Below, piece by piece: positions 2,190 to 25,893 of a DNA stretch of 64,000 nt. The notes below the pieces were generated by a model, which was not told the DNA's origin, did no database searches, and was given only the letters and a program-made list of their open reading frames with translations. Positions within the stretch are counted from its first letter, which is position 1. Every line of letters starts with the position of its first letter. The DNA comes from Microtetraspora niveoalba (GTDB lineage Bacteria; Actinomycetota; Actinomycetes; Streptosporangiales; Streptosporangiaceae), in contig NZ_BBYM01000005.1 of assembly GCF_001570405.1 (NCBI RefSeq), positions 62,001 through 126,000 of the forward strand. The letters are read 5' to 3'. The translations under genes and the position numbers were made by a program.

Positions 2190-4897
<2,708 letters not shown>

Positions 4898-4905
4898 AAC
4901 CCCGC

Positions 4906-4941
4906 GTTTCTCTCCCGATCCGGCAGGATCGGGAGAGAAAC
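4906..4941 (+). other. 16-bp perfect inverted repeat between grpE and dnaJ
   Basis: Arms 4906-4921 and 4926-4941 are perfectly complementary around a GGCA loop. No T-run follows, so it is not a classical terminator. It lies in the only real intergenic gap of the dnaK operon (78 nt). A role in mRNA processing, 3-prime-end stabilisation or partial attenuation that lowers DnaJ relative to DnaK/GrpE is inference. Confidence 0.85.
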
Positions 4942-4975
4942 CAGAGACACCCCCTTGCGCGGAGGAAAGCGATAG

Positions 4976-6160
4976 ATGAGCACCAAGGACTACCTGGAGA
5001 AGGACTATTACGCCGTCCTTGGTGTGCCCAAGTCCGCCACCGCCGCAGAGATCAAGACGGCGTACCGGAAGCTGGCCAGGCAGTACCACCCGGACGCCAA
5101 CAAGGGCAACACCGAGACCGAGGAGAAGTTCAAGGAGGTCTCCGAGGCCTACGACGTGCTCTCCGACACCAAGCGCCGCAAGGAGTACGACGAGGCCCGC
5201 ACCCTGTTCGGGTCGGGGATCGGCGGATACGCCGGCACCGGCGCGTCGCGGGGCGGCGGCTTCAACTTCGACTTCGGCGACCTGTTCTCCGGCGGCGGCT
5301 CCGGGCACAGCGGGGCGGGTGACCGCATCGGCGACCTGTTCGGCGGCCTGTTCAACCGGGGCGGCGGCCGCACCACGGCGACCGGCGCCACCCGGCCGCG
5401 CCGCGGCCAGGACATCGAGTCCGAGGTCACGATGTCGTTCGCCGAGGCCATCGAGGGCACCACGGTCTCGCTGCGACTGACCAGCTCGTCCGCCTGTGCC
5501 GCGTGCAGCGGCACGGGCGCCAAGGCGGGCACCACGCCGCGCGTCTGCCCGACTTGCGAGGGCACCGGCGCGGCCAGCCGCAACCTGGGGAACTTCGCCT
5601 TCTCCGAGCCGTGCCGCGACTGCCGTGGCCGGGGTCTGATCGTGGACGAGCCGTGCCCGGTGTGCGAGGGCAGCGGCCGGGGCAAGAGCACCCGCACCAT
5701 CCAGGCCCGCATCCCGGCGGGCGTCGGTGACGGCCAGCGCATCCGGCTCAAGGCCAAGGGCGCACCCGGCGAGAACGGCGGCCCCGCGGGCGACCTCTAC
5801 GTCCAGGTCCACGTCAAGCCGCACCCGGTGTTCGGCCGCACGGGCGAGAACCTCACGGTCACCGTGCCGGTCACGTTCCCCGAGGCGGCGCTCGGCGCCG
5901 AGATCAAGGTGCCCACCCTGAAGGGCATGCCGGTAACCCTGCGCGTCCCGGAGGGCACGCCCAACGGGCGCACGTTCCGCGTGCGCGGCCGGGGAGCCCC
6001 CCGCAAGGACGGCACCAAGGGCGACCTGCTCGTCACCGTTCAGGTGATGGTGCCGTCGCACCTCGACGACAAGGCGAAGGCGGCTCTTGAGGAGTTCCGC
6101 GACGCCAGCGAGGGCACCGACCTGAGAGAAGAGCTGATCAAGCAGGCCAGAAGCGAGTGA
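4976..6160 (+). CDS. dnaJ: Co-chaperone DnaJ (Hsp40), type I
   Basis: Delivers substrates to DnaK and triggers its ATPase. 394 aa with J domain at about residues 9-75 including the HPD motif (YHPDAN), a Gly/Phe-rich region (about 80-140), a zinc-finger domain with four CxxCxGxG-type repeats ([32 protein letters not shown]; about 173-236), then the substrate-binding C-terminal domain. The start is preceded by GCGGAGGAAAGCG. All zinc ligands are present. Four bases separate it from hspR. Confidence 0.97.
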
Positions 6161-22638: not shown

Positions 22639-23268
22639 TCAGGCGACGCCATGCCGCACCGCGTAGAGGGCGGCCTGGGTGCGGTCCTGGACGCCGAGCT
22701 TCATGAGGACGTTGGAGACGTGGGTCTTCACGGTCTTCTCCGCGACGGCCAGCTCTCTGGCGATCTCGCGGTTGGAGCGGCCTCCGGCGATCAGCCGCAG
22801 CACCTCGCGCTCCCGCTCCGTCAGCGACGCGACCGCGTCGGCCGGGGCGCGGTCCTCGCCTGAGATCATCGCCTCGGCCGCCTCGGGCGCGAGCAGCACC
22901 TGCCCCCCGTGGACCGCCCGGATGGCCTGGACGAGGGCGGTGGGATCGACGTCCTTGTACAGGAAGCCGGAGGCACCGGCCCGCATGGCGGGCGCGACGT
23001 CCCCGCGGTCGCTCACCGAGGTCAGCACGATCACCCTCGTGCCGAGGTGGCCCGCGGAGCCGAGCCGGGCCAGCGCGCCCAGGCCGTCGAGCACGGGCAT
23101 CTTCAGGTCGAGGAGCAGGATGTCCGGCCGGGTCGACTCGGCCAGCGCGACCGCCTCCGCGCCGTCGGCCGCCTCGCCCACCACGGTCACGTCCTCCTGG
23201 ATCTCCAGGAACGTGCGCAGGCCCTGCCGGACGATCGGGTGGTCGTCGGCGATGAGTACGCGGATCAT
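22639..23268 (-). CDS. NarL/FixJ-family response regulator
   Basis: 209 aa. Receiver domain with acidic pocket IADDH and phosphoacceptor Asp54 (LLLDLKMP), the conserved Thr/Ser in VIVLTSVSD and Lys in GFLYKDVD. LuxR-type HTH at about 145-205 ([44 protein letters not shown]). The ATG overlaps the kinase stop (ATGA), making this its cognate partner. Confidence 0.96.
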
Positions 23269-24428
23269 GCGGGCACCACCAACCGGACCGTCGTGCCGGC
23301 TCCGGGCGCGGCGACCACCTCCAGCGAACCACGCGCGTTCTCCGCGCGGTCGCGCATCGAGGCCAGCCCGAGCCCCTTGACGGGGTCGGCGTCGGGGGCG
23401 AACCCCTTCCCGTCGTCGCCGACCTCCAGGACCAGCGCACCGTCCCGGTGCGCGAGCCGTACGTCGATGTGGGCGGCCTCGGCGTGCCGCAGCGCGTTGT
23501 GCAGCGCCTCCTGGGCCACCCGCAGCACCGTCACCTCGGCGGTCACGTCGCCCCTGGGGGCGGCGTCGGGATCGCCGTCGAAGGTGAACCGCGTCGTGAC
23601 CGGGTGCAGCCGGTCGAGCAGGTGGACGTGCTTGCGCAGCGTCTCGACCAGGCCGTGCCGGTCCAGCTCGGCCGGGCGCAGCTCGACGATCACCGCGCGC
23701 AGCTCGCTCAGGGCCTCGCCCGCGAGGCGCTGGACCTGGTCGAGCTCCCTGGCGGCGCGGCCGGGATCGGTGTCCAGGAGCGACGCGGCGGCCCGCGCGG
23801 TCAGCCGCAGCGAGAAGAGCTTCTGGGTGACCGCGTCGTGGAGCTCGTGCGCCATGCGGGTGCGCTCCTCGATCACGGTCAGCTCGCGCCCCCGCTCGTA
23901 CAGCCGGGCGTTGGTGAGGGCGATGGCGGCGTGCGCCGCGAACATGGTGAGCAGGTCCTCGTCCGCGGGGGTGAAGCCGCCGGGGGTCCGCTTGTTGGAG
24001 AGGAAGATGATGCCGAGGACCTGCTCGCCGTCGCGGATGGGCACGCCGAGGAAGTCCTTGAGCACCGGATGCGCCCTCGGCCACCACTCGAACCGGGAGT
24101 CCCTGCGGATGTCGGCCAGCCGGACCGGCTGGCCGTCGCGCAGCATCGCGCCGAGCATGCCGTGCTGCCGGGGGGTGGGGCCGATGGCCTCCCACTGCTC
24201 CTCGGAGATGCCCTCGGCGACGAACTCGGCGAACGCGCCCTGGTCGTCGGGGACGCCGAGCGCCGCGTAGCGCGCGTCGAGCAACTGGGCCGCCGAGCGG
24301 ACGATGACCTGCAGCACCTCGCGCACCGACAGGTGGCGGGTGACCGCGAGCACGGCCGAACTGACCGCGTGCAGGACGGCGTCGCGACCCGGACAGTCGA
24401 GGGGGAGATCAGGTGTCGGCTCGGCCAC
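23265..24428 (-). CDS. GAF-domain sensor histidine kinase (DevS/DesK-like)
   Basis: 387 aa, no membrane helix, so cytosolic. GAF domain at about 28-180 ([26 protein letters not shown] ... [19 protein letters not shown]) resembles the GAF modules of DevS/DosT. HisKA_3 dimerisation domain with phospho-His in [19 protein letters not shown] (His197), and HATPase_c with [11 protein letters not shown] and [10 protein letters not shown]. The ligand is not known; in DevS a GAF binds haem. Translationally coupled to the NarL regulator. Confidence 0.93.
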
Positions 24429-24583
24429 GCCCCCACCATATGGCGGGCCGCCGACATCGCCGCGCCCGGCCGCCGCCGTGGCCCTCCCCGGGGCCGGGCC
24501 GGTGGTCCTAGGGCGAACTGCCGAGGCGGTCCGAGGGCTGTGGCCCGATGTGCGGCCACCGCCCGATTCCTAGCGTGAGCGGC

Positions 24584-24883
24584 ATGAAGCACGTACTCAT
24601 CACCGGAGCCTCCCGCGGACTGGGACTGGCTCTGGCCAGGTCGCTCGCCGCCGACGGATGGGCGCTCACGCTCACCGCCCGGGGAGAGGAGGACCTCCAC
24701 TGCGCCGCGTTCGACCTCGACGCCTCCGCCGACGTGACCGCCATCGCGGGCGACGTGGCGGACCCGGCCCACCGGGCCCGCCTGGCGGCCGCCCCTGATC
24801 CGGAGACCGTCGCCCCGGCGCTGCTGCGCCTCGTCGCCGCCCGCCCCGCGAGCGGCCGGTTCACGAGGGACGCGCTGGAATGA
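24584..24883 (+). CDS. Internally deleted short-chain dehydrogenase (remnant)
   Basis: 99 aa only. It starts with a complete SDR nucleotide-binding motif (KHVLITGASRGLGLALARSLAADGW) and continues to IAGDVADPAHRARLAA. It then jumps to a sequence typical of the C-terminal end of such SDRs (PDPETVAPALLRLVAARPASGR). The NNAG region, catalytic Ser and YxxxK are absent, about 130 residues less than the family norm. The frame is open throughout, and the stop overlaps the next ATG (ATGA). Best read as an in-frame internal deletion; unlikely to be a working oxidoreductase. Confidence 0.75.
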   Translation: MKHVLITGASRGLGLALARSLAADGWALTLTARGEEDLHCAAFDLDASADVTAIAGDVADPAHRARLAAAPDPETVAPALLRLVAARPASGRFTRDALE

Positions 24884-25893
24884 GCCCGGCCCTCGATTTC
24901 ACGCTGCCCGCCGTACAGGAGGCGCACGAGCCGCCGGAGGAGCGCGGGCTCACCCGGGACGCCGTGCGGATGCTCGTCTCGCGCAAGGACACCGGGGAGA
25001 TCACGCACCGGACGTTCCGCGAGCTGCCCGAGGTCCTCGCGCCGGGCGACCTGCTCGTGGTGAACAACTCGGCGACCATCGCCGCCGCGGTGCGGCTCGA
25101 CCGGCTGGCCGTCCACTTCTCCGGCGAGCTGCCCACCGGGGAGTGGCTGGTCGAGCTGCGTACGCGCGTGGCGGGCGGGAGCCGGCCCTACGCGGGCGGG
25201 GCGGCGGGCGAGTGGCTTCCCCTGCCCGGGCAGGCCACGCTGCGGCTGGTGCGCCGGGAGACGCCGCGCCTGTGGCGGGCCGTGCTCGACCGTGACGTCC
25301 CGGACTATCTGGGCAGGTACGGCGTGCCGATCCGCTACTCGTACGTGCGGCGGGACTGGCCGCTCGACCGCTACCAGACGGTGTTCGCGGTCGCGCCGGG
25401 CAGCGCCGAGATGCCGAGCGCGGGCCGCCCGTTCACGGCCGAGCTGGTCACCGCCCTGGTCGCGCGCGGCGTCGCGGTCGCGCCCATCACGCTGCACACC
25501 GGGGTGGCGTCCCCGGAGAGGGACGAACCTCCCTCTCCTGAGCGCTTCCAGGTGCCCGAGCCCACCGCCCGGCTGGTGAACCTCACCCGCGAGAGCGGCG
25601 GGCGGGTCGTCGCCGTGGGGACGACGGTGGTTCGCGCTCTGGAGAGCGCGGCGCTGCCGGGGGCGGCGCGGACTGTTCGGGCGGCGGAGGGGTGGACGGC
25701 GCGTGTCGTGACCCCCTCCGAAGGCGTACGAGTGGTGGACGGGTTGGTCACGGGGCTGCACGAGCCGCGCTCCAGCCATCTGATGATGCTGTCCGCCGTC
25801 GCCGGGGCCGAGCTGCTGTCGCGCTCCTATCGGGCCGCGCTCGACGGCGGCTATCTCTGGCACGAGTTCGGGGACAGGCATCTCATCCTTTAG
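24880..25893 (+). CDS. QueA-like S-adenosylmethionine:tRNA ribosyltransferase-isomerase
   Basis: 337 aa. QueA-family features: VLAPGDLLVVNNSATIAAA near residue 55-73, YQTVFAVAPGSAEMPSAGRPFT near 165, PITLHTGV, VVAVGTTVVRALES and LVTGLHEPRSSHLMML. QueA transfers the ribosyl of SAM to 7-aminomethyl-7-deazaguanine in tRNA. This actinobacterial type is divergent, and no other queuosine gene is in the window, so the substrate is uncertain. Coupled to the SDR remnant. Confidence 0.85.
   Translation: MSPALDFTLPAVQEAHEPPEERGLTRDAVRMLVSRKDTGEITHRTFRELPEVLAPGDLLVVNNSATIAAAVRLDRLAVHFSGELPTGEWLVELRTRVAGGSRPYAGGAAGEWLPLPGQATLRLVRRETPRLWRAVLDRDVPDYLGRYGVPIRYSYVRRDWPLDRYQTVFAVAPGSAEMPSAGRPFTAELVTALVARGVAVAPITLHTGVASPERDEPPSPERFQVPEPTARLVNLTRESGGRVVAVGTTVVRALESAALPGAARTVRAAEGWTARVVTPSEGVRVVDGLVTGLHEPRSSHLMMLSAVAGAELLSRSYRAALDGGYLWHEFGDRHLIL

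Follow-up and report, generated by a model that had tools for sequence, protein, structure and literature searches.

The closest described counterparts of the locus analysed here are an intact SDR of Microtetraspora glauca (BBYL01000008.1, L060; PF00106 adh_short), the tRNA-modifying enzyme QueA (tRNA preQ1 SAM ribosyltransferase-isomerase; PDB 1vky, 1wdi and 1yy3) and the leaderless mRNAs of S. coelicolor, of which 264 with leaders shorter than 10 nt are given in the part of PMC4681348 drawn on here. The portions of PMC10570037 used here report many tgt-less, non-Q species among actinobacteria and assign queA by COG0809 membership; those portions hold no discussion of QueA without TGT, and the parts consulted of the open-access literature, including PMC1282579, PMC12503941, PMC10570037 and PMC10491745, contained nothing on point about a QueA–SDR pair or about QueA without TGT. 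The window, by which we mean the whole stretch of 64,000 nucleotides of Microtetraspora niveoalba DNA that was analysed, resembles M. glauca in the N-terminal TGxxxGxG motif, the C-terminal tail, the gene position and the ATGA overlap, and it differs in that its SDR has 99 aa instead of 224 and is without NNA, the catalytic Asn, Ser, Tyr and Lys, and DPG. The protein encoded downstream is a full-length member of PF02547 and matches the three solved QueA structures by sequence; it differs in that it stays under the equivalog cut-offs, its genome is without TGT and an SDR stands upstream in 108 of 110 locus rows. With the S. coelicolor leaderless mRNAs the window shares a promoter-like hexamer near the start codon and the lack of a strong SD before the SDR; unlike them, the window case is known here from sequence alone.

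The explanation that we consider probable, and hold with reasonable confidence, is that a recent and lineage-specific in-frame deletion of 375 bp gutted the SDR gene of this Microtetraspora species, that the product is no SDR enzyme, and that the QueA-family gene behind it continues to be transcribed and translated. The deletion would have occurred at a short microhomology and cut the catalytic core out of what was a classical SDR, and the surviving promoter, start codon and ATGA overlap would allow transcription and translation of the downstream gene. What remains, a product of 99 aa, cannot act as an SDR enzyme, and the activity of this SDR has presumably been lost.

The remnant lies at 24584–24883 on the forward strand, as indicated by the ORF list, the PF00106 match and the DNA alignment with relatives; the frame consists of 99 codons followed by a TGA stop, and the protein starts with MKHVLITGASRGLGLAL and ends with GRFTRDALE. 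A start at the alternative in-frame ATG, at 24548, would lengthen the protein to 111 aa; 24584 was chosen over it on the grounds that this start is common to the relatives and that TAGCGT lies 7 nt ahead of it. The N-terminal part (24584–24787, forward strand) represents codons 1–68 of the ancestral SDR, matches PF00106 over residues 2–68 (profile positions 1–68 of 195; 44 bits) and has the nucleotide-binding motif of classical SDRs in the form TGASRGLG at residues 7–14; the C-terminal part (24791–24883, forward strand) represents approximately the last 30 codons. The window row of the SDR alignment is gapped at the NNA motif and the catalytic Asn, as well as at the columns of the catalytic Ser and of the Tyr and Lys of YxxxK, and DPG is also absent.

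Our genus sample comprised four genomes, namely that of the window (G000), G001, G002 and M. glauca (G003). Residues 1–70/71 of the remnant are 93% identical to each of the three relatives, a likeness beyond chance, and residues 58/59–99 are identical at 68% to G001, 76% to G002 and 73% to G003. At the same position G001 and G003 encode an SDR of 224 aa, and in G002 the gene is split over two contig ends, whose pieces jointly cover it. When compared with the full-length G003 protein, the remnant aligns in two pieces, with G003 residues 1–70 (94%) and 183–224 (71%), and the DNA alignment with G003, G001 and the two G002 fragments shows that the window coding sequence lacks 125 codons (375 bp) in a single gap. 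The junction lies at 24784–24793 (forward strand), where 375 bp are missing relative to G001 and G003; GGCG(G) forms a microhomology there, and the window is one GCC unit short of the relatives. Among the features that the lost span carried are NNASG, the catalytic Asn, Ser, YGATK and DPG. The GCGGAGG repeats of G003, 7 nt long, were considered as the source of the deletion by slippage and rejected, the product expected from it reading differently from the window. The initial annotation had proposed an in-frame internal deletion that kept both ends of the SDR, removed the middle with NNA, Ser and YxxxK, joined near 24785–24790 and left the ATGA coupling intact, and the comparison with full-length same-genus orthologues, together with the profile match, the gapped columns and the ATGA at 24880–24883, bears out each of these points.

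We then compared 110 locus rows of QueA-like genes, 30 from a genome search and 80 kept of more from a scan of named genomes, the window included. An SDR stands upstream of the QueA-like gene in 108 of them; in the other two, L090 and L114, the contig ends 1306 and 52 bases ahead of that gene. These 108 rows represent 100 distinct proteins (eight pairs are identical), among which 96 have at least 216 aa and all 96 have both Tyr and Lys, which supports an in-frame internal deletion in the window. The remaining four are the window remnant of 99 aa, two contig-edge fragments (G002, 118 aa; G053, 131 aa) and an SDR of 188 aa from Streptosporangium pseudovulgare (two rows). Over the 108 rows, Asn is found in 104 and 102 at its two columns, Ser (the column aligned as S2) in 107, Tyr in 107 and Lys in 105; the two rows with Gln are one frameshifted genome counted twice. 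Among these rows, the window alone has lost the catalytic core through internal deletion, and the family of natural 99-aa homologues that would have spoken against a deletion was not found in the 108 SDR rows listed. The deletion is limited to the window lineage. In Streptosporangium pseudovulgare (L073, 4200–4763), the SDR frame breaks near YxxxK, apparently through a G too many in a run of G, which is possibly a sequencing error.

The age of the deletion was considered on the basis of substitutions in the part that remains. The dN/dS of the remnant against G002 is 0.147 over 97 codons, a divergence like that of an intact orthologue, and the changes private to the window (69 N-terminal plus 28 C-terminal codons) are nine synonymous and three non-synonymous, one of them at the junction codon. 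Supposing that the remnant has evolved neutrally since the deletion, at most 0.24–0.16 of the branch can fall into that period when the earlier dN/dS is set at 0.05–0.14, this limit being a rough Poisson bound that uses two changes. These data are compatible with a recent deletion, with a remnant that is still constrained and with a deletion that is not real; if the remnant is unconstrained, the deletion is recent. For the QueA-like gene, the ratio of non-synonymous to synonymous private changes is 24:15 in the window (from a list in which two codons are counted twice), 16:27 in G002, 11:16 in G001 and 13:24 in G003; the window ratio gives a Fisher p of 0.014 against the pooled 40:67 and of 0.046 against G002 alone (both uncorrected). 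None of the 24 non-synonymous window changes falls at a column with at least 90% conservation, and the pattern reads as mild relaxation or adaptation, not decay; as a point against the deletion reading preferred here, the whole module may be relaxing or adapting.

The SDR stop and the QueA-like start overlap as ATGA at 24880–24883 (forward strand), as read from the sequence, and the same overlap is present in G001, G002 and G003. The hexamer TAGCGT, which is of the -10-like form TANNNT, lies at 24571–24576 on the forward strand, 7 nt before the ATG, where TCCTAGCGT is common to the four Microtetraspora sequences. TANNNT is the -10 form of actinomycetes, and TAGCGT is probably a leaderless promoter of both the remnant and the QueA-like gene. 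In a wider comparison, TANNNT ending 5–10 nt before the SDR ATG was found in 41 of 67 testable loci (of 82 in all), whereas 200 shuffles averaged 1.9 and reached 7 at most; it occurs in 29 of 30 among L029, L038 and L060–L088 and in 12 of 37 elsewhere. Of the 30 loci in the same set that gave a value, 29 have an SD ahead of the SDR that pairs more weakly than -4.5 kcal/mol, and the hexamer and the weak SD together predict an mRNA that is leaderless and begins at the SDR ATG. The survival of the promoter and the ATGA overlap indicates that the downstream gene is probably still expressed, presumably from this same mRNA.

The strongest of the rival explanations, which we nevertheless find doubtful, is that selection keeps the remnant as a leaderless feeder: ribosomes would load at the SDR ATG at the mRNA 5' end, read 99 codons and re-initiate at the QueA-like ATG. 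The hexamer frequency just described supports it, as does the frame at the junction, because one further base lost would make the frame run 415 nt past the QueA-like ATG and two further bases lost would make it stop 82 nt short of that ATG; however, random deletions are in frame in one of three cases. The SD survey of QueA-like starts, which covered 83 loci (40 with the 4-nt overlap, 22 with a gap of at least 20 nt, 13 without an SDR within 1.5–1.8 kb and 8 between), speaks on both sides. Mean pairing is -6.0 kcal/mol in the overlap class and -8.6 in the 13 loci without a near SDR, or -9.0 for 12 of them when the contig-edge row L114 is left out; these 12 are a related group of starts behind an MFS-sized gap or a contig cut, and the overlapping starts are weaker than they are (Mann–Whitney p 2e-5, calculated on related sequences), a point in favour of the feeder. 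Against this, SD strength does not simply track coupling, because the 22 gapped loci have no stronger SD (mean -5.05), and the window start, at -6.4, equals those of G001 and G002, which have their SDR. Moreover, the SDR frame of Streptosporangium pseudovulgare ends 216 nt ahead of an intact QueA-like gene, which counts against a feeder if the frameshift is real, and the window remnant is too young to display a constraint of its own. As for the suggestion in the initial annotation that the remnant may be kept to couple translation, frame and ATGA are preserved and coupling between the remnant and the QueA-like gene is plausible, but its retention for this purpose is unproven in view of the one-in-three odds, the SD values of the gapped loci and of the window, and a deletion that may be too recent to tell. 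In the deletion reading that we prefer, the preserved frame would be a by-product.

The QueA-family gene is intact, encoding 337 aa at 24880–25893 on the forward strand. Its protein matches PF02547 at 256.7 bits, with residues 5–336 covering profile positions 4–322 of 322, and it has the commonest residue at 100 of 100 columns with at least 95% conservation among 80 loci (L060–L139). Its scores against the NCBIfam QueA equivalogs are 177.7, 152 and 92 bits, below the respective cut-offs of 324, 267.45 and 588. A search for TGT (PF01702) gave no match in the window genome, while 14 of 14 control genomes matched; PF02547 is present in nine of these controls, all nine with TGT. Among 60 relatives, including the window's own genome, the QueA-like match is strong in 33 (E below 1e-50) and weak in two others, and TGT is present in three. 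In 295 actinomycete genomes at the class level (at least 95% complete, drawn evenly from a larger group), PF02547 was found in 67 and TGT in 95, and both together in none, against 21.6 expected (Fisher p 9e-14, kinship ignored). As the two never co-occur in these 295 genomes, the window "QueA", and the actinomycete "QueA" with it, is probably not a queuosine enzyme; the name QueA-like, used in the initial annotation, is not supported in its queuosine sense, the genome being without TGT. The context suggests that the QueA-family genes of actinomycetes are not markers of queuosine synthesis, and a role in a small-molecule or unknown nucleoside pathway may be supposed. Microtetraspora sp. NBRC 13810 (L104, G012) is the only one of the 60 genomes with both a QueA-like gene and TGT.

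The feeder explanation can be extended accordingly, and in this form too we regard it as rather unlikely: the remnant would serve an orphan QueA-family enzyme outside queuosine synthesis, belonging to a widespread SDR–QueA module (sometimes with MFS or VOC) and acting on a small molecule or other nucleoside, and the QueA-like step would now proceed without a reductase of its own or with a borrowed one. The window genome has 105 SDR-type matches (PF00106, E at most 0.001), so a borrowed reductase is conceivable. Under the preferred reading of a recent deletion, the locus adds an instance of ordinary gene loss, here in a probably mis-named gene pair. The remnant as such is ordinary, and its value is that of a natural knockout: an SDR stands upstream in 108 of 110 rows, this species appears to manage without the enzyme, and the division of labour in the pair becomes testable.

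That the strain has a full-length SDR, and that the 375 bp were lost in amplifying or assembling DNA of approximately 73% G+C, is improbable in our judgement, even though G002 gives it some substance. Contigs C48 (L011 1–520) and C80 (L030 1–30) of G002 both end within the SDR gene; in C48, sequence from about codon 112 of the SDR passes into an inverted kinase gene, the two pieces being separated by a stretch with a weak match of 29 nt (90%) to the reversed kinase–SDR intergenic region of the window, and kinase residues 1–38 were not found in G002. The reversed match would fit a fold-back contig end; the stretch between the SDR and kinase pieces, for which a transposon or a real inversion was considered, gave short matches only. 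Since G002, the nearest relative by QueA-like dS, breaks in the same gene, the region can mislead assemblers. Against an artefact, the join in the window is clean, in frame and inside a contig of 270 kb; a search of the window assembly (99.86% complete) for the lost middle found no stray copy, only 36 paralogue matches, the best-scoring 41% identical; and the assemblies of G001 and G003 run through this span, at 74% and 73% G+C. The deletion is probably present in the organism, not only in its assembly.

A function of its own for the 99-aa protein, for example as a half-Rossmann nucleotide-binding or regulatory protein, is very improbable. In its favour, an AlphaFold2 model (29 homologues) gives a beta-alpha-beta-alpha-beta-alpha half domain at a mean pLDDT of 85.5; against it, the model takes its fold from homologues and is silent on stability, and the 108 SDR rows listed hold no second 99-aa homologue. 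Block values of pLDDT are 89–95 over residues 1–60, 85 over 61–70 and 67–79 beyond, so that the remnant would be compatible with the parent fold, stability not being implied.

Upstream of the remnant, a divergent gene at 23265–24428 on the reverse strand was named as a sensor histidine kinase by reading its translation. In the kinase–SDR intergenic region (window 24500–24583), GGTCCTAGGGC, whose last base context varies, and TTCCTAGCGT are common to the four Microtetraspora genomes, and GGTCCTAGGGC may be a regulator site. The QueA-like gene and the SDR occur together, in some loci with an MFS or VOC gene separating them. In 11 loci (nine of Actinomadura and two MAGs), the SDR lies beyond 1.5–1.8 kb upstream with a gene in between, which in Actinomadura L099 (3637–4998) is an MFS gene by Pfam and in Actinomadura L093 (ORF 3346–4998) by resemblance; in the other nine, an MFS gene is presumed from the gap of 1335–1536 nt. 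Six loci have gaps of 313–554 nt, and the four small gap ORFs that were scanned (L107, L111, L121 and L129) all exceed the Pfam cut-off for the VOC/glyoxalase family (PF00903), each encoding a small protein of this type between the SDR and the QueA-like gene.
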